Shown here in pieces: positions 1,440 to 13,750 of a stretch of 21,441 nucleotides of DNA (positions within the stretch are counted from its first letter, which is position 1; each line of letters begins with the position of its first letter). The notes beneath the pieces are model-generated. The model was not told where the DNA came from and did no database searches. It saw nothing but the letters and a program-made list of their open reading frames with translations. Source of the DNA: a virus; the IMG/VR virus record IMGVR_UViG_3300037069_001586, positions 1 to 21,441 of that record; one strand, given 5' to 3'. A program made the translations under genes and the position numbers.

Positions 1440-2144
1440 TTACTTTCCTTGTAGCCTTTCTATAAACCTTATTATTGTTGACCAAACTATCTCAAACCAA
1501 GTCGCTTGTCCACCAACTTGAGGAGGTGGAGCAGTTGTAGTCCATGTCGTCGTAGCCGTCGTTGTTTCGACAGGCTGTGCAGTAGTGGTATCAGTGGTAG
1601 TTGCTGTAGTTGTTGGAGCCTGCGTCGTCGTCGTAGTAGTCGTTTCAGGAGCAACTGTCGTAGTAGGATCAGGAATCGGTGCCGGTGGAACTCCAGGGTC
1701 TGGGGCTGGATCAGGCGCCGGGATTGGTGCTGGTGCAGCCTTGGGACGCATCCATCCAATGACGTACGTCCAGACGTGTCCGGTAACAAAGTGAACATAT
1801 TGGCCTCCCCAATTTTGGTCTAGGCCCTGCCAATGGTCAGTGTCTTGCTGCATATCAAATATATTGATATGCCCGTAGCCACCGGAGCCAGGCTGGTTCC
1901 CATTAAAGATTACTACGTCACCCCTATTCGGTAATTGATTAGGGTCGTTAGGGTCGTTAGCGATAAAATCAAAAGCACCTATCAGAGAAGGGTGCTGCCA
2001 CCAGTCCTTCGCGTTAGCGTAGGCCACTGGCTTATTATTATCAGAACAGTATTGTGCAATTTCGTCAACGCACTGGGCGCCGTACATTCCGTCCCAGTCG
2101 ATGGCTTTTCCAAGCCACCTATTGATGAACCCGTCGTAGTCCAT
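1440..2144 (-). CDS. Endolysin with CHAP domain, Pro/Thr-rich linker and short C-terminal helix
   Basis: This 234-residue peptidoglycan hydrolase should cleave the stem peptide or cross-bridge (amidase or endopeptidase) at lysis. The CHAP domain spans about residues 1-135. The catalytic Cys is in Y-G-A-Q-C-V-D (Cys25), the His in G-Y-G-H-I-N (His92), with Asn111 in L-D-Q-N-W-G-G as the likely third residue. Next come a Pro/Ala-rich stretch (about 137-160) and a Thr-rich linker (about 161-207). The end (about 216-234) is a short amphipathic, mostly hydrophobic and basic helix (W-F-E-I-V-W-S-T-I-I-R-F-I-E-R) in place of a usual wall-binding domain. No signal peptide is visible, so export should depend on the adjacent holin. 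AGAGGT lies six bases before the ATG. Confidence 0.88.
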   Translation of the reverse strand: MDYDGFINRWLGKAIDWDGMYGAQCVDEIAQYCSDNNKPVAYANAKDWWQHPSLIGAFDFIANDPNDPNQLPNRGDVVIFNGNQPGSGGYGHINIFDMQQDTDHWQGLDQNWGGQYVHFVTGHVWTYVIGWMRPKAAPAPIPAPDPAPDPGVPPAPIPDPTTTVAPETTTTTTTQAPTTTATTTDTTTAQPVETTTATTTWTTTAPPPQVGGQATWFEIVWSTIIRFIERLQGK

Positions 2145-2180: not shown

Positions 2181-3797
2181 TTAACTCACCTTCACCCAAA
2201 CTGAACCATTCCAGCGCTTCAAGGGCTTCTGGGGCCAACTTGAGCCGTTCCACACCTTGACAGGACGGTACTGCCAAGTAGCGCCGTCCCACTGCTTCAT
2301 GTCACCCGGGATACCTATGCTGATCTTGGCGACAGCCGACTGAGTTTTGCTTAAGTTAACGGCAATCCTGGCAGTTGCACTCTGGGTAAGGGTTTTGTTA
2401 AGGGCGATACGGCCAATGGCGTTCTGGGTTTTAGTCAGGTTCTTTTGGATACGAGCGACAGCAGGCTGCGTCTTTGTAAGGTTCTGCTGGATACGAGCGG
2501 TCGCACTCTGGTATTTGGTGGAGTTGACGTTGTTGACTATATGGGCTATGGCGCTTTGAGTCTTGGTGAGGTTAACCTGGACTCTGGCTGTGGCGCTCTG
2601 GGTCTTGGTGCTTTGGGCTATGATATGAGCTATAGCCGTCTGAGTCTTGGTTAGGTTGACAGCTATGCGGCTTATGGCGCCCTGGGTCTTGGTCTTGTTG
2701 TTGGCGATCCGAGAGATAGCGCTCTGAGTTTTAGTAAGGTTAACCTGGATGCGAGCAGTCGCGGCTTGAGTTTTAGTGAGGTTAACCTGGATACGGGAGA
2801 TAGCTGTCTGGGTCTTGGTCTTATTGACTTGGATGCGAGCAACAGCGGTCTGGGTCTTGGTCAAGTTGACCTGAATACGGGCAATGGCGCCCTGAGTCTT
2901 AGTAACCTGGGCGGTGATGTGGGCGACAGCGCTCTGTGTTTTGGTCAGGTTAACGGCGATACGGGCAACAGCAGCTTGGGTCTTGGTTAGAGCGGAGCCC
3001 CCATTGATAATATTTATATAATCAGTTACCAAGTTCTGGGCTATGTTGGCGGTAGCCGTTTGGGTCTTGGTGAAGTTATTTGCTATATGAGCTATGGCTG
3101 TCTGGGTTTTAGTCTTATTAACAGCCAGTGCTGAGTTCGATAGGGCTATTAACACCCCAATAGTTCTGTGAGATGAGTCAGTAGTAGCTACGGACCCACT
3201 GTATGTACCGGTAGCGCTAACCACTTGAGTCTCTGTCGCTGTCGCCATGTTCTCGGTGGTAGTTGAGCCAGTCGAGAAGTTGACGGCCGTAGAGCCACCT
3301 AAGCTTCCTACGGTCAGTGTAGCGGTACTAATTATCTCTGCCACGCCATATAGTAGAATGTCGTTAGCATTAGCTGTAACGCTACCCAACGTGGTCGTAA
3401 TGGTAGATTCACCGTTAGAGGTATGCGTGCCTACAGCGTCTAGGGCGTTCCCCGAAGTGACTAGCCCACTAATTTCAATAGCAACTATGGCTGATAGTAC
3501 GAAGCCGCTATCTGAGGCTGTGACTACTAGCCCGGCCTTACTAGTAATATTCTGCGTCAAGTACCATTGTCCAGCGGCTGAAGTGGAGTTAGCGACCCCG
3601 GCGCCGGCTAGGGCTGTATAGGTAGCCCCGTTGTTATCTGTTACCCCGCTGAAGTCAGTGAGATCACCTTCGACGGTGACGAACACAGCGATAGCATTGC
3701 CAGCAGTTGTAGTGCTACCAAAGGCAGCAGTGGCTAATGTGTTGTTAAACCCAGTAGCGTCGCCTCTAGCTTGTTGGACAAATGCAGGGTTAGCCAT
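2181..3797 (-). CDS. Tail fibre/adhesin-like protein with eighteen 14-residue repeats and a C-terminal WNGS module
   Basis: A 538-residue virion protein, probably host-binding. Residues 1-225 form a beta-rich, Ser/Thr/Gly-rich domain homologous by eye to the 244-residue protein two genes upstream (shared V-Q...T-T-x-G-N, N-x-Y-T, N-A-N-D-I/L-I/L patterns). Residues 228-495 hold eighteen copies of a 14-residue unit, consensus L-T-K-T-Q-S-A-I-A-R-I-Q-V-N. They are interrupted by a 13-residue insert after copy 2 and two residues after copy 13. The last 43 residues carry three W-[ND]-G-[AS]-x-W motifs. No catalytic motif is seen. The start overlaps the upstream stop by one base (TAATG), so translation is probably coupled. 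Function as a fibre is inferred from repeats and context. Confidence 0.75.
   Translation of the reverse strand: MANPAFVQQARGDATGFNNTLATAAFGSTTTAGNAIAVFVTVEGDLTDFSGVTDNNGATYTALAGAGVANSTSAAGQWYLTQNITSKAGLVVTASDSGFVLSAIVAIEISGLVTSGNALDAVGTHTSNGESTITTTLGSVTANANDILLYGVAEIISTATLTVGSLGGSTAVNFSTGSTTTENMATATETQVVSATGTYSGSVATTDSSHRTIGVLIALSNSALAVNKTKTQTAIAHIANNFTKTQTATANIAQNLVTDYINIINGGSALTKTQAAVARIAVNLTKTQSAVAHITAQVTKTQGAIARIQVNLTKTQTAVARIQVNKTKTQTAISRIQVNLTKTQAATARIQVNLTKTQSAISRIANNKTKTQGAISRIAVNLTKTQTAIAHIIAQSTKTQSATARVQVNLTKTQSAIAHIVNNVNSTKYQSATARIQQNLTKTQPAVARIQKNLTKTQNAIGRIALNKTLTQSATARIAVNLSKTQSAVAKISIGIPGDMKQWDGATWQYRPVKVWNGSSWPQKPLKRWNGSVWVKVS
2313..3116 (-). repeat. Array of 18 degenerate 42-bp coding repeats
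   Basis: The repeated unit encodes L/K-T-K-T-Q-x-A-x-A/S-R/H-I-x-x-N. Lys/Thr/Gln at positions 3-5, Ala at 7 and Ile at 11 are nearly invariant, and the positions between them vary. Copy 14 has K-Y-Q and copy 17 has L-T-Q in place of K-T-Q. At the DNA level the copies differ by many synonymous changes, so the array is old or kept by protein-level selection rather than freshly amplified. Confidence 0.9.
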
Positions 3798-4351
3798 TAC
3801 TGGTACACCCTAACTGTCACGAAGTTGTTAGCGTCAAGATAGTGGGAGACATTACTGCTTTGGGTAGCGGTCATGGTGAGCAGGGTGCCTGCTGCTGTGC
3901 TTGTATCGGTGGCTAGAGTTTCCCATGCGCTAGAGAAAATATTATAAATCTGTAAGTAAAGTGTTTTCGCTGAGGTAGCTGTCCCCGGCTTGCCCTTCCA
4001 CGTTACCCCGATAGACGCAGGCGACCCAGAGATGTATTGGTCAAATTGGTGCAAGCGATAGGTTAGATTACTGCTGTTATTAATGTCGGTAGTGTTGCTA
4101 AGGGTGTTAGCATTAGTAACCTGAGTGTTCGAGTAGTAAGTTGCCAGGTCATTATTGTTGGCAGGGAGGCTGTTGGACGCCCCCAGGGAGTACGTGCTCG
4201 ATGGCTTGATACGAGCTACTGCTGGCTGGGTAACAGAGAAGTTGATAGCAATTCGAGCAATGGCTGACTGAGTTTTGGTCAGGCTCTGAATATTGGCCTT
4301 AAAGTTCCCAAGGTGTGGTCGGATAGGGAATGATCGGCCAAGGCGTGCCAT
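3797..4351 (-). CDS. Tail-associated protein with two copies of the KTQ repeat
   Basis: This 184-residue virion-cassette protein begins M-A-R-L-G-R-S-F-P-I-R-P-H-L, an opening I associate with phage structural proteins. Residues about 24-50 contain two copies of the same 14-residue repeat found eighteen times in the next gene (L-T-K-T-Q-S-A-I-A-R-I-A-I-N, then a diverged F-S-V-T-Q-P-A-V-A-R-I). The remainder (about 52-184) is Asn/Ser/Thr-rich and looks all-beta, with W-K-G-K and Y-L-Q-I-Y strands and a final T-V-R-V-Y. It shares one-base TAATG overlaps with both neighbours, so three genes are translationally chained. A tail or adhesin role is inferred from context and the shared repeat. Confidence 0.7.
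   Translation of the reverse strand: MARLGRSFPIRPHLGNFKANIQSLTKTQSAIARIAINFSVTQPAVARIKPSSTYSLGASNSLPANNNDLATYYSNTQVTNANTLSNTTDINNSSNLTYRLHQFDQYISGSPASIGVTWKGKPGTATSAKTLYLQIYNIFSSAWETLATDTSTAAGTLLTMTATQSSNVSHYLDANNFVTVRVYQ
4202..4282 (-). repeat. Two KTQ-type 42-bp coding repeats outside the main array
   Basis: This is the same 14-residue unit as the 18-copy array at 2313-3116, present twice near the N-terminus of the neighbouring gene. The second copy is diverged (F-S-V-T-Q). It shows that the repeat is a mobile or shared module rather than a feature of one protein. Confidence 0.85.
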
Positions 4352-5085
4352 TAGTAGAAGCTCCGCCTTGGAATAGCAGCCATATTGATCTCATTGGGCA
4401 TCGGGCTCACTGTGCCGAACCTCTTATTAGGGATAGAGGCGGCTCCCCCGGACCCCTTAAAAGCAGCAACACCAATCGCATTGTTAGTAGCGTTAGTCGT
4501 AGTGAACGAAGCTGACTGCGCACCAGTAGCGCTAACAATTTTATCTTCTAGTGCTAGTTCATTAGAGGTCCCAGTGGCTGTTACAAGATTACCAAAGCCA
4601 CTCCCTACGGCGCTAATGGCTGTGGCGGTGCTGCCCACCGCCCATCCAATAATCAAATCGTTAGCGTTCGTCGTAGCCGATGTATTGCCAGAGCTTTGGA
4701 CTCCTCCTGATGACGTAGCGGTAGTAACTGTATGCTGATCGACTGGAGCAGTTGTGACTATGCCAGAATATTCTCGCATAAGGAAGTTACAATCCTGGGA
4801 GCCAGAGAAGTGAACAGTTACTGTCGGAGTGGTCCCCCCTGTTATGTTTTTGGCATACCAAAATTCCCAGTCACAACTACCTACCCCTGATGTGCCGCTA
4901 TCTAACTTGGTATAAGTATTGCTTTGTGAGTCAGAGATAGAACTTACAACCGAGAAAGCTCCAAACCCCGTATATACAACCAGGACAATAAGGTTCCCGG
5001 TTGTGGTGTTGCTGCCCCATGTGGCAGCTATACTGGTAGTATTAGCATTAACACCAGCTTTAGTCTGGACGAGCGAGATAGCCAT
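4351..5085 (-). CDS. Beta-rich virion protein, paralogue of the repeat-protein N-terminal domain
   Basis: This 244-residue protein is rich in Thr, Ser, Ala and Gly with alternating hydrophobic strands, and probably forms a beta-sandwich or jelly-roll. It aligns by eye with residues 1-225 of the 538-residue repeat protein: G-S-N-T-T-T-G-N-L-I-V with G-S-T-T-T-A-G-N-A-I-A, S-Q-S-N-T-Y-T with D-N-N-G-A-T-Y-T, and T-T-N-A-N-D-L-I with V-T-A-N-A-N-D-I-L. It contains two Cys (in S-C-D-W-E-F-W and D-C-N-F-L). The last 30 residues form a basic, proline-containing tail (I-P-N-K-R-F-G... I-P-R-R-S-F-Y). A GGGGTGG stretch lies upstream of the ATG. Exact role unknown, presumably surface binding or tail decoration. 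Confidence 0.68.
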   Translation of the reverse strand: MAISLVQTKAGVNANTTSIAATWGSNTTTGNLIVLVVYTGFGAFSVVSSISDSQSNTYTKLDSGTSGVGSCDWEFWYAKNITGGTTPTVTVHFSGSQDCNFLMREYSGIVTTAPVDQHTVTTATSSGGVQSSGNTSATTNANDLIIGWAVGSTATAISAVGSGFGNLVTATGTSNELALEDKIVSATGAQSASFTTTNATNNAIGVAAFKGSGGAASIPNKRFGTVSPMPNEINMAAIPRRSFY

Positions 5086-9323: not shown

Positions 9324-10205
9324 TTATAGTATCACCCTTTCTAATGCTTCAACATATTTAATGGAACACTTTTGTTTATCAACCCAAGAAAAGTCTCCGC
9401 CGAATGGCGTCTGCTCTCGATACTTACCCTTGAAAAATAATTGACCGGTATCCTCTGTGACTCCTGAGTTATGGAGAATCTTAGTCTCATCCCAGCGCTT
9501 TAGGGGGTCGGTGGAGAAACAGAAGTCCAGCTCCTTGGGGGCTTCGATAGTAATACCATACTCTACCATCGTCCAGAGTTGAGCCCACATCTCGGCTGTC
9601 CACTTCTGGATATTGCTAGTGACGCCATCCAGGTAGTGCCAAATAGCATTACTGCGCGTGTAGGCTTGCTTCCACATCTCGGCCGTTGGGTTTGCGATAA
9701 CGAGATGGCCCCCGATACCCGGGACGTTGACCATCTGCTCCTCGGTAATGTTACAAAGCGCTGCCATACGCGCTACGATGTCTGGGCCACGGTCACACTG
9801 TTTAATGTACGCGTGGTTGATGTAACTGTTACAGTTGCTACCCAACCACTTCTTCGGGCCAAAATCTAATGTCGCAAAATCTATCCACTCTCTAAAGATC
9901 ACGTCGCTGTCAATATAGAAATACGTTTCGGCTTCTCGCTCCGGGTGGTTACGGAGATACTGCCACCATAGGTAAGGCCGGATAGACGGGATGTAACTCT
10001 TGTCATACCGGTTGTCCTCATAAACAAAAGCCCGTACCCCAGGATACTTGTGGACCAAGTAAGAGGGTACGGAGCTGTTGTAATCGTGAGGCTTGCTGAA
10101 CAGCAACACCACTTCCATATCGGTGAATTGTCTGATATTGGTGAGCAGCACTTCCAGCTCCCATTGGAAGCGTAGAATGGAAGGCTGCGCCAATATCAGT
10201 TTCAC
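9324..10205 (-). CDS. Putative GT-A-type glycosyltransferase
   Basis: A 293-residue enzyme that should transfer a sugar from a nucleotide-sugar donor. It has a GT-A layout: early strands (V-V-L-L-F-S-K-P, V-R-A-F-V-Y-E-D), the metal-binding D-S-D in Y-F-Y-I-D-S-D-V-I-F (residues 99-101), a conserved-looking V-P-G-I-G-G-H-L-V-I-A-N-P (161-173), and a late I-L-H-N-S-G (His245), a plausible third metal ligand as in several GT-A families. It has no membrane segment. The start is GTG at 10205, with AGGA eight bases upstream. It lies just after the capsid gene, so virion proteins are plausible acceptors, but host surface polymers are an alternative. The family number cannot be assigned from sequence alone. 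Confidence 0.72.
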   Translation of the reverse strand: MKLILAQPSILRFQWELEVLLTNIRQFTDMEVVLLFSKPHDYNSSVPSYLVHKYPGVRAFVYEDNRYDKSYIPSIRPYLWWQYLRNHPEREAETYFYIDSDVIFREWIDFATLDFGPKKWLGSNCNSYINHAYIKQCDRGPDIVARMAALCNITEEQMVNVPGIGGHLVIANPTAEMWKQAYTRSNAIWHYLDGVTSNIQKWTAEMWAQLWTMVEYGITIEAPKELDFCFSTDPLKRWDETKILHNSGVTEDTGQLFFKGKYREQTPFGGDFSWVDKQKCSIKYVEALERVIL

Positions 10206-10225: not shown

Positions 10226-11140
10226 TTACGGGCCGGCAGTAACGGTTGTAGCCGTGGTGCTAGCTGTGGTGCTTGCGGCATTTTCGAGTGACGCAACGCT
10301 GTTGACTTTTTGGTTTAGAACGAATGTGTCAGCACGATCTCGCAACTGGATTTCGATACCACTGAAGCCGGGAACTGGGTCTACGATGACCATGCCGCCA
10401 GCCTTGGGGTCCATTTTTGGAGTGACGTTGATGACTGCACGCTTGTCAACGACAAGGGCTAGGACACCTACGAACAGGTAGCTATCAGGAATTTCGACAG
10501 TAGGAACGCCAGCCAACTTGCCAAGGTAGCCGTTCTTGCCAGCAGCGAAGCCGGCTTCGGAACCCGTGAAGTTGATCTGAGCACCAGCAGTATCCTTGAA
10601 GGTATAAGTAACCCAAGCAATCAAGTTGCTAGTGTTACCACCTGAGAAGGTACGGCTCTTGCTAACCATTTTGCTGAAGGACAATGCGTAACCAGGAATC
10701 TGGTTGCCGCCGGTTGGGTCTGTGGTGTCGAGAGCAACGATGTTGCCGGCAGGACGGGCAGCCCAAATTTTTGCCAGGGTGTAAGCGTCGTGAGCAGGAA
10801 CGAATACATCGTTAGCTTGCTGCAAGGCGACTTGCTTGGCGAACTGACCAACAGGGATGTCCTGAATCTGCGTGCGCTGGATGCGGAGCAGCATAGACTT
10901 GTTGTAAGCCAGTTGAAGCACTTGCTCACTTGGGACCACCAAAGTGGCGCTACCAAATGGAGTAGTTGCGTTTGTTTCGTCATAGTTGCTGAGAGTACCG
11001 TCAGCGACTGACAGGACACGAACGCTGTTAACGCCGTCCCACTTATAACCGTTGTCACCAAGATAAGGAGCAGTCACGCTACTGATGTGTAGCGGCGTGT
11101 CCATGATATTGGCTGTCTTTGTCCCATAGCTAAAAGCCAT
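10226..11140 (-). CDS. Major capsid protein
   Basis: A 304-residue protein, called as the major head protein from its sequence style and place in the head module. It has the N-terminal W-D-G-V-N-S-V-R-V-L-S-V region, then L-S-N-Y-D, a strand with V-P-S-E-Q-V-L-Q-L-A-Y-N-K, and the helix D-I-P-V-G-Q-F-A-K-Q-V-A-L-Q-Q-A-N-D-V-F-V-P-A-H-D. Together these are typical of one large group of phage capsid proteins with an HK97-like fold. The C-terminus is Thr/Ala-rich (A-S-T-T-A-S-T-T-A-T-T-V-T). The ATG at 11140 is preferred over the in-frame TTG at 11146, because GAGGA (11148-11152) is seven bases from the ATG and only one from the TTG. Confidence 0.75.
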   Translation of the reverse strand: MAFSYGTKTANIMDTPLHISSVTAPYLGDNGYKWDGVNSVRVLSVADGTLSNYDETNATTPFGSATLVVPSEQVLQLAYNKSMLLRIQRTQIQDIPVGQFAKQVALQQANDVFVPAHDAYTLAKIWAARPAGNIVALDTTDPTGGNQIPGYALSFSKMVSKSRTFSGGNTSNLIAWVTYTFKDTAGAQINFTGSEAGFAAGKNGYLGKLAGVPTVEIPDSYLFVGVLALVVDKRAVINVTPKMDPKAGGMVIVDPVPGFSGIEIQLRDRADTFVLNQKVNSVASLENAASTTASTTATTVTAGP

Positions 11141-11195
11141 TGTCAAATCCTCTTTCTAATTAGTTTTGTGTCGAACCCTTGTTGTTCATAAGCTA

Positions 11196-11468: not shown

Positions 11469-12829
11469 TGCAAATACCACTAAACTATGTCCCCCGGGAC
11501 TACCAGAACGAAGCCTTGTGCGCCCTTGATAATGGTTCAACAATGAACATCTGGTGTTGGTCGCGGCGAGGTGGCAAGGACTTTACCGCTTTCGCCTACG
11601 CTGTCAAGAAGATGGTAGAGCGCCCTATGAACGTCGTCATCGTCTGGCCGACCAAGAAACAGGGATACGACAACTTCTGGACAACTATCTCTAATGACGG
11701 TATGCCGGTGCTCGATCACATCCCTGCCAGCCTGATCGCCCAGCGTACGAACAGTCCTACGGATATGCACATTACCCTGAAGAACGGCTCGACCCTCACG
11801 CTCCTTGGGGCCACAGAGCCAGAGGCCCTGCGTGGTGCTAACGGCTTTATCTATATCTTCTCAGAGTTCGTAGACATTCCCGGCGCAGCGCTGGATGTCA
11901 TCCGACCAATCGTGGCCGTTAACGGTGGTCAAATTATTATCCAGTCCACCCCGAAGATCGACGGCATCTCCGGTGGGACGTTTAAGATACTGTTCGACCG
12001 CGCTGTTGGGATTATGAAAGCCGGTGGCAAGCAGTTCGCTAGCCGTGTTACCGCTGACGCCTATCTGTCTAAAGAGCAACTAGAGGACATCCGGCAAGAG
12101 TCGATTGCCAAGAATGGTAATGACTTCTGGTATCAGCAGGAGTTCATGTGCGACTGGGGGCAGGTCAGCGCCACCAGTTACTACGGCGCTGTTCTGTCAG
12201 AGCTGCGAAAGCGTGGCAAGATCGGCCGTTATCCTTACGACCCAGCCTACCCAGCCTTTACTTCCTGGGACTATGGTATGAGCGATAGCACTGCTATTGG
12301 CTTCTTCCAGTACATCCAAAAGACCCCCCGGGTGATTGATTATTATGAGACTCACGATATTGCGCTGGGGGTCACACTCGACTACGTGCGCTCTAAGCCT
12401 TATAACCTGATGTGGCACTTCTTCCCCCATGACCTTAGAGTGCGTGACAGTGATGCTATCGAACGTATGAGTAAGGTGTTAGAGGTCCTGCCAAACAGTA
12501 GCCTGCTACGCCGTGAACCGAAAGAAGATGGCATCAAGCGGGCCGTAGATAAGACGATGCTCACCGAGTTTAACGAGGGTACGACCGAGGATTTGCGCCG
12601 TAAGCTTGGTCTGTATAAGCGTAAATTTAACCCGCTCACCGGGGACTACGAGGGCCCGGAACACAAGACCGAGAGCCACGCAGCTGACGAACACCGCTAT
12701 ATGTTTGCCGCTATCGAACAAGAGTTTGACCCAAAAACGGGACTGTTTCTATACAGCCCCGATTTACAGGTGTCTACTTATGACAGCGAAGAAATCAATC
12801 TTGCGCCGCAGTTTAATCCTGGGTACTAA
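11468..12829 (+). CDS. terL: Terminase large subunit (ATPase and nuclease)
   Basis: A 453-residue packaging motor that pumps DNA into the prohead and cuts it. The N-terminal ATPase has Walker A in W-S-R-R-G-G-K-D (31-38), a Walker B-like hydrophobic strand ending S-E (F-I-Y-I-F-S-E, 127-133) and a coupling motif I-I-Q-S-T-P-K (157-163). The C-terminal RNase H-like nuclease shows Asp268 and Asp273 in S-W-D-Y-G-M-S-D-S-T, Asp322 in F-F-P-H-D, and Asp407 in H-A-A-D-E-H-R-Y-M. Length is normal for the family. It sits on the + strand while all other head genes are on the - strand. Its TAA overlaps the TAG of the facing gene by four bases in total. Confidence 0.92.
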   Translation: MQIPLNYVPRDYQNEALCALDNGSTMNIWCWSRRGGKDFTAFAYAVKKMVERPMNVVIVWPTKKQGYDNFWTTISNDGMPVLDHIPASLIAQRTNSPTDMHITLKNGSTLTLLGATEPEALRGANGFIYIFSEFVDIPGAALDVIRPIVAVNGGQIIIQSTPKIDGISGGTFKILFDRAVGIMKAGGKQFASRVTADAYLSKEQLEDIRQESIAKNGNDFWYQQEFMCDWGQVSATSYYGAVLSELRKRGKIGRYPYDPAYPAFTSWDYGMSDSTAIGFFQYIQKTPRVIDYYETHDIALGVTLDYVRSKPYNLMWHFFPHDLRVRDSDAIERMSKVLEVLPNSSLLRREPKEDGIKRAVDKTMLTEFNEGTTEDLRRKLGLYKRKFNPLTGDYEGPEHKTESHAADEHRYMFAAIEQEFDPKTGLFLYSPDLQVSTYDSEEINLAPQFNPGY

Positions 12830-13185
12830 GCGACTTCTTCTTCGCTATTGCTTTGCTCACCAGCAGTGGTCTGGTGGTCAGCTGCGTGGTTAGCCATAGC
12901 CGTAGAACGAGCCTCAGCCATACGTTCATCAGCTGTCTGAGTGACGTCGTTGGTTGTAGGGTCGTTAGCTGGGTTCTCAACAGCTGGGCTGGCAACAGAG
13001 CCAGAAGCGTTTAAGTCAGTGCTAGGAGCGGCGTGTGCTGGGTCAGGATTAGGCAATGAGTCATTACCATACTGCTGGGCAATCGTCTGAGCTTCCGTAG
13101 TAGTCGTAGTCGTGGTAGGCGCTGCGGTTGTTGATGTGGTAGTAGTTTCATCTACTGTCGTTGTTGTTGTGGTGCTGTCGTCCAT
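12826..13185 (-). CDS. Thr-rich low-complexity acidic protein
   Basis: This 119-residue protein has an N-terminal 33 residues made mainly of Thr (D-D-S-T-T-T-T-T-T-V-D-E-T-T-T-T). The rest is Asn/Asp/Ala/Pro-rich and looks unstructured, with one short helical stretch (A-D-E-R-M-A-E-A-R-S-T-A-M-A). The C-terminus is acidic (S-E-E-E-V-A). AAGGAG lies seven bases upstream of the ATG. It lies between the scaffold region and the inverted terminase island, so it is probably a head-region protein, but the function is unknown. Its stop codon overlaps the convergent TerL stop. Confidence 0.68.
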   Translation of the reverse strand: MDDSTTTTTTVDETTTTSTTAAPTTTTTTTEAQTIAQQYGNDSLPNPDPAHAAPSTDLNASGSVASPAVENPANDPTTNDVTQTADERMAEARSTAMANHAADHQTTAGEQSNSEEEVA

Positions 13186-13225: not shown

Positions 13226-13750
13226 TTATGCTTGTGTTGTCGTCGAAGTATTTGATGGCGCTTTAGTGGTTGTTGTGGTTTGCTCGGCCGCCTTACGAGC
13301 CGCTAACTCAGCTTCCAAGTCGGCAATCGACCTAGTAGTGGTTGTGGTAGTCGAAGCTTCGACCTTGGCTGGGCCACCATCAAAACCCTCACTAGACGCA
13401 GCAACTTCAGCTGCCTGGACTTGCTTATCGTAATCATCAGCGTATTGGTCGATGTTAGCGATAGGGGCTTTCTCCAGTTCGGTCCTGTCGCTAATCCAAT
13501 GTAATATGTCAATCTCTGTCATATCCTCAAGCCCCTTCCGGTAGCGAGCAGCAATGCGCTCTAAGGTCGTAATGTCTTGCTTAATGCGCTTGATCTCGAC
13601 AACTACTTCCGGCGCCAAGCGCCAGCCCAAGTCTTGCCCCTGGGTAATGTTTGGGCTATGGTCAGAACTTGACCACAGCGCTGCGATCTTCGGCTCAGTA
13701 TCAGCTACTGCCTCTAGCCCTGATCTAATGTTAAAAAATTTGACTGCCAT
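13226..13750 (-). CDS. Head-region protein of unknown function with Thr tracts
   Basis: A 174-residue protein. Residues 1-110 appear folded: N-terminal F-F-N-I-R-S-G, a central helical region (V-V-E-I-K-R-I-K-Q-D-I-T-T-L-E-R-I-A-A-R-Y) and D-I-L-H-W-I-S-D-R-T-E-L. The C-terminal third alternates Thr tracts (S-T-T-T-T-T-T-R and Q-T-T-T-T-T-K-A-P) with an Ala/Glu-rich helix, D-L-E-A-E-L-A-A-R-K-A-A-E. AAAGGAG precedes the ATG by six bases. Placement between the probable scaffold and capsid suggests a head assembly or decoration role, unproven. Confidence 0.65.
   Translation of the reverse strand: MAVKFFNIRSGLEAVADTEPKIAALWSSSDHSPNITQGQDLGWRLAPEVVVEIKRIKQDITTLERIAARYRKGLEDMTEIDILHWISDRTELEKAPIANIDQYADDYDKQVQAAEVAASSEGFDGGPAKVEASTTTTTTRSIADLEAELAARKAAEQTTTTTKAPSNTSTTTQA

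Follow-up and report, generated by a model that had tools for sequence, protein, structure and literature searches.

A 14-residue repeat array in a predicted surface adhesin of uncultivated phages, encoded beside two conserved small genes

Triple beta-spiral shafts, as in adenovirus, reovirus and phages, are built from 15-residue repeats. Among phage capsid proteins, the phi29 head fibre gp8.5, T4 Hoc and T5 pb10 are thought to aid attachment via carbohydrates (PMC7602432). Tail-associated proteins of crAssphage are reported to carry tandem BACON repeats, parts of which were horizontally transferred (PMC6949934), and distantly related Alteromonas phages are reported to have host-recognition modules in common (PMC10579305). 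Here we analysed a 21,441-nucleotide stretch of DNA (hereafter, the window) from a bacterial virus known from metagenomes only, in which one gene carries a long array of a short repeat.

The repeat array and its relatives

The array gene shares its strand and gene block with the major head protein and endolysin genes, and in other contigs its cassette (described below) adjoins head, adaptor and neck genes, which places it among the virion structural genes (Table 1). The initial annotation had counted 18 copies of a 14-residue unit, and this is borne out by a motif search of the 538-aa protein, with 18 matches where 20,000 shuffles averaged 0.00075 and never exceeded 1. The tally holds for this protein, and two more units that were missed earlier (LTKTQSAIARIAIN and FSVTQPAVARIKPS; window 4199-4282) are encoded in the adjacent 184-aa gene. 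The self-identity of the array is 0.54 at lag 14, 0.52 at lag 28 and 0.51 at lag 42, and a 42/84-nt array was also picked up by Tandem Repeats Finder. The spacing is 14 residues throughout except for 14 additional residues after unit 2 and two after unit 13, the latter unit having His rather than Arg at position 10. The units are not perfectly constant: there is a single Leu at K3, a single Tyr at T4, and His, Asn or Lys at position 10 in places. Several (+) strand open reading frames of 69-74 aa overlie the array at window 2347-2990 and are probably side effects of the codon pattern of the repeat.

Table 1 Features of the window around the repeat array.
Feature	Position	Strand	Description
Endolysin gene	1440..2144	-	Directly downstream of the array gene
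Array gene, 538 aa	2181..3797	-	N-terminal beta-rich domain, 18-unit array and Trp-rich tip
Trp-rich C-terminal tip	2184..2312	-	Three W[ND]GxxW segments
14-residue unit, 18 copies	2313..3116	-	Residues 228-495
Expanded linker	2523..2528	-	Two extra residues after unit 13
Non-motif stretch	2991..3032	-	14 residues, LVTDYINIINGGSA, after unit 2
N-terminal domain	3117..3797	-	Residues 1-227, beta-rich in the model
Adjacent gene, 184 aa	3797..4351	-	Two units, then a beta-sandwich-like domain
244-aa gene	4351..5085	-	Resembles the array protein's N-terminal domain
Conserved cassette gene, 121 aa	5610..5975	-
Conserved cassette gene, 168 aa	5994..6500	-
Major head protein gene (phrog_422)	10226..11146	-	Upstream of the cassette, same strand

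Pairwise comparison of the window units gave a pS of 0.72, near saturation, against a pN of 0.29. At Q5, A7 and I11 the pN is 0-0.05; Q5 and A7 are invariant, and T2 and I11 almost never changed. With silent sites near saturation while the motif residues scarcely vary, the array is old and is maintained by selection at the protein level. DNA slippage or recent expansion was rejected as its origin because even the most similar pair of units has only 74% DNA identity and the silent sites are nearly saturated.

The repeat recurs in metagenomic phage proteins. A DNA pattern of two tandem KTQxA units, used as the search seed, matched 39 IMG/VR stretches, about half of them real arrays on translation, and a profile made from these and further loci detected 555 units, of which 524 are distinct, in 26 arrays on IMG/VR contigs. 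The family consensus is [LVTF]-T-K-T-Q-[TSP]-A-[VTI]-A-R-I-[ATSQ]-x-[TNS], and units are more similar within one array than between arrays. Copy-number variation between phages, raised in the initial annotation as a mark of a tunable shaft, was found, with 4 to about 43 units per protein as counted at a rough profile threshold. The 97% identical L013 and L025, which have LGTDYYNPGFANI where the window array has LVTDYINIINGGSA, have the same array length. The window and L013 have in common the tip and, following unit 2, the anchor stretch TDY[IY]N, and the distance from anchor to tip is 245 residues in the window vs 300 in L013, a difference that includes 42 residues (three units). Copy number is therefore variable among distant phages and stable among close ones. 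In a sub-family (L017, L021 and L035; KTIxAxARITATT), position 5 is often Ile rather than Gln, and up to 43 units were counted.

The KTQ repeat is apparently an unnamed family. A PDB sequence search returned nothing better than an E of 1 or more, scans of the array with Pfam, PHROGs and NCBIfam gave scattered weak matches with no Pfam or NCBIfam model at its curated cut-off, and a query with one array matched a single record weakly (E 6e-3, 23% identity) in a set of 50,697 phage records. A literature search for the KTQ repeat motif found nothing relevant.

A cassette with two conserved genes

Contigs that are otherwise unrelated share the 168-aa and 121-aa genes alongside their arrays (43-77% identity), and searches of IMG/VR with the two genes matched 25 and 19 loci, respectively. 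The array gene is downstream of both in 17 of the 18 contigs whose sequence reaches far enough, IMG/VR contigs being often partial; the exception, L184, has the cassette without an array, and another region of this contig encodes a 1226-aa protein with three units. Among cassette-bearing contigs, the major head proteins are of at least four unrelated kinds (phrog_422 in the window, and phrog 1005, 1357 and 9953). In six of these contigs (L173, L180, L182, L184, L187 and L190) the major head protein gene precedes the cassette and a head-tail adaptor homologue follows it, and in L175, L177 and L188 the cassette is downstream of genes for other major head proteins. In the window, L183, L191, L192, L193 and L195 it follows a hub-like gene and precedes the lysis genes where these are covered; the window belongs to this podophage-like group, with the cassette after the tail-hub genes. 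The cassette is absent from L167 and L169, two terminase relatives of the window (59-79% identity among such relatives) whose fetched DNA covers the region. Because the same cassette sits with unrelated head proteins and is missing from these terminase relatives, it has been exchanged between phage lineages, and the recurrence of the repeat beside this pair of small genes in viruses that are otherwise unrelated indicates that the three are probably a transferable attachment device.

This defines a three-gene attachment cassette found only in uncultivated phages, and its two conserved genes can be used to trace adhesins of metagenomic phages that have gone unrecognised. The two genes had no clear relative among the 50,697 phage records. 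A host search with the 168-aa gene, covering about 1,570 genomes from four phyla, matched only a Flavobacteriales MAG, and a loose DNA pattern scan of genome contigs gave at least 120 matches, among which, for those listed, real units occurred only in the contig of this MAG. That contig (L101, L161 and L332) is probably a phage contig binned with the bacterium, because it carries the 1226-aa L039 protein together with the 168-aa gene of the cassette. The MAG is the sole host hint found.

The ends of genes 4351-5085, 3797-4351 and 2181-3797 abut or overlap, and these coordinates suggest translational coupling. Relatives of the 244-aa protein are encoded in L018, L020, L026 and L031. The C-terminal domain of the 184-aa protein matches a 428-aa ORF of L013/L025 (35%), resembles that of L178 by eye, and has a GH114_assoc match below threshold (E 0.015); no whole-protein relatives of the 538-aa and 184-aa proteins were found in IMG/VR. 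Elsewhere in the window, a 293-aa protein (9324-10205, -) adjoining the head protein gene is glycosyltransferase-like by eye; it is kept in the terminase relatives (52-89%) and has no Pfam match. The endolysin contains Thr-rich low-complexity stretches, as do two small proteins encoded upstream of the head gene (12826-13185 and 13226-13750, both -).

Other domains, of lectin type in some phages, interrupt the arrays or are joined to them. The L187 array protein has Laminin_G_3 (3e-13) and DUF2341 matches, that of L195 a Gly_rich_2 match (2e-15), and L182 an Ig-like match below threshold; L195 also has a 159-aa insertion between units at a place where L192 has units only. Among the proteins of the window itself, no member of a lectin family was recognised. 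The reading of the N-terminal domain as the base of a fibre is not supported: the domain is swapped between phages and varies from cassette to cassette, the constant parts being the two upstream genes, and the tail-fibre pattern of a conserved N-terminal anchor followed by a variable C-terminal part is not seen. The Trp-rich tip described at the C-terminus is present and is not private to the array protein. It is a generic phage module, since many unrelated phage proteins end in it, including short Rhodobacter phage proteins. This triple-hairpin-like WNGxxW tip (L213, L214 and L215-L293) is widespread, stands behind GVSATGxVG, GSYxLTGxxA and KTQ repeats, and also occurs in stand-alone short proteins of Rhodobacter phages.

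Predicted fold of the unit

The AlphaFold prediction of the full 538-aa protein (8 sequences) was not confident (mean pLDDT of 53, and 50-71 across most of the array). It has a 9-residue strand (positions 7-14 and position 1 of the next unit) in nearly every unit after the insertion and a 5-residue T-K-T-Q-x turn per unit, and the array is free of helix; this low-confidence monomer, with one strand and one turn per unit, is what bears on a beta-solenoid. An isolated 10-unit segment was modelled at a pLDDT of 32 with no secondary structure. Across the family, 20% of units have Pro at position 6, and such units occur in 21 of 25 arrays; Pro reaches this level at no other turn position (2-6), and Gly is at or below 5% at all of them; positions 8 and 11 hold beta-favouring residues. 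Covariation is strongest between residues i,i+2 (mean z of 3.3), followed by i,i+1 (2.4), i,i+3 (0.8) and i,i+4 (0.6), and the inter-unit covariation examined for a parallel or antiparallel register gave no clear signal past neighbouring residues. Arg is missing from position 10 in 16 of 21 units before a +2 linker vs 33 of 435 others (p=4e-13), a statistic in which some units may share ancestry. The arrays carry a charge of +1.9 per unit, and that of the window +35 with no Asp or Glu.

Given the Pro at position 6, the i,i+2 covariation and the strands of the low-confidence model, the unit is most likely one beta-strand plus a TKTQ turn, which describes it better than a coiled coil. Because five residues cannot span back along a 9-residue strand, the geometry suggests that the strands would stack as an antiparallel meander or with other chains. 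Of the rod proposed in the initial annotation, a regular, selected, shaft-like array therefore stands, and its coiled-coil option is disfavoured. A trimeric alpha-helical coiled coil, with 14 residues as two heptads as in the head fibres of phi29 or the tail needle of P22, would accommodate positions 1, 4, 8 and 11 as a/d and the weak, sub-threshold matches to the CLZ, SMC and SpiroCoCo models. It is nevertheless very improbable, as a continuous heptad-compatible helix is at odds with the frequent Pro, with i,i+2 coupling far above that at i,i+3 and i,i+4, with the +1 and +2 insertions that break the heptad phase, and with a modelled array of strands and no helix. It is also unlikely that the array is a disordered basic low-complexity linker, conserved for charge or composition and only spacing domains. 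Its Thr/Ala/Lys/Gln-rich composition, the excess of positive charge without acidic residues in the window, the low AlphaFold confidence and the unstructured isolated segment would fit such a linker, whereas the strict 14-residue phase, the invariance of Q5 and A7 in a window array whose silent sites are saturated, the position-specific coupling and the strand pattern of the full-length model argue against it.

Proposed role and comparison with known systems

On sequence and model grounds, we consider it fairly probable that a transferable cassette encodes a phage surface adhesin whose stalk is the array. In this scheme the 168-aa and 121-aa genes would be the constant part, and the next gene or genes would bring the stalk and variable binding domains. 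Since each unit would add one strand and one short turn, the number of units would set the stalk length, which the range of 4 to about 43 copies makes directly testable against adsorption. The basic stalk (about +2 per unit) would present N-terminal, interleaved or C-terminal domains, some of them lectin-like, which may bind host-surface glycans. We infer the beta fold, the outward display on the virion and the binding of glycans or polyanions.

The array had been read as the shaft of a phage fibre; the selected shaft-like array and the adhesin-type protein agree with this, and a tail placement was not borne out, the cassette being beside head genes in several phages. A head and a tail fibre are equally possible, and the gene order is ambiguous between them. 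The mechanism of the adhesin stalk would be the same on either, and we give a fibre or decoration on the head (capsid) close to an even chance. Carbohydrate-mediated attachment aids are known on capsids (Hoc, pb10 and gp8.5; PMC7602432), and the gene order in several phages favours the head: six contigs have the cassette flanked by the major head protein and head-tail adaptor genes (in L184 with the array missing from it), and three have it downstream of genes for other major head proteins. Decoration therefore fits as well as tail fibres. On the other side, the cassette of the window and L183 adjoins lysis genes after tail-hub genes, and the units of L039 are in a 1226-aa protein whose C-terminal part is tail-protein-like, by eye only. 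Rather doubtful is a wider proposal, namely that the cassette encodes a new class of polycationic beta-ladder fibre, one that travels whole between genomes of podo- and siphophage-like phages and can be mounted either on the head or on the tail, in which an Arg/Lys ladder would bind polyanions of the host envelope and the two-unit stub would co-assemble with the long array.

The adhesin that we favour would, like gp8.5, Hoc and pb10, be a virion surface protein that helps attachment, and its cassette is beside head genes in several phages; it differs in that gp8.5 is alpha-helical and Hoc and pb10 are Ig-like, and the array protein has no sequence match to them. With triple beta-spiral shafts it shares short fixed-length repeats of (here predicted) beta structure, a variable copy number and a terminal binding module, but the unit has 14 rather than 15 residues and, with so little Gly at positions 2-6, lacks the conserved Gly/Pro turn pattern. 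A protein of MW202675.1 likewise has a repeat region ending in a homologous Trp-rich WNGxxW tip, with GVSATGxVG as its repeat sequence. The BACON proteins too combine tandem repeats in virion-associated phage proteins with horizontal transfer of parts, the repeated element being a whole domain there and 14 residues here (PMC6949934). The Alteromonas phage modules consist of other genes, and the KTQ cassette is found here only in uncultivated phages; in both, an attachment module (here a proposed one) is exchanged between unrelated phages (PMC10579305).
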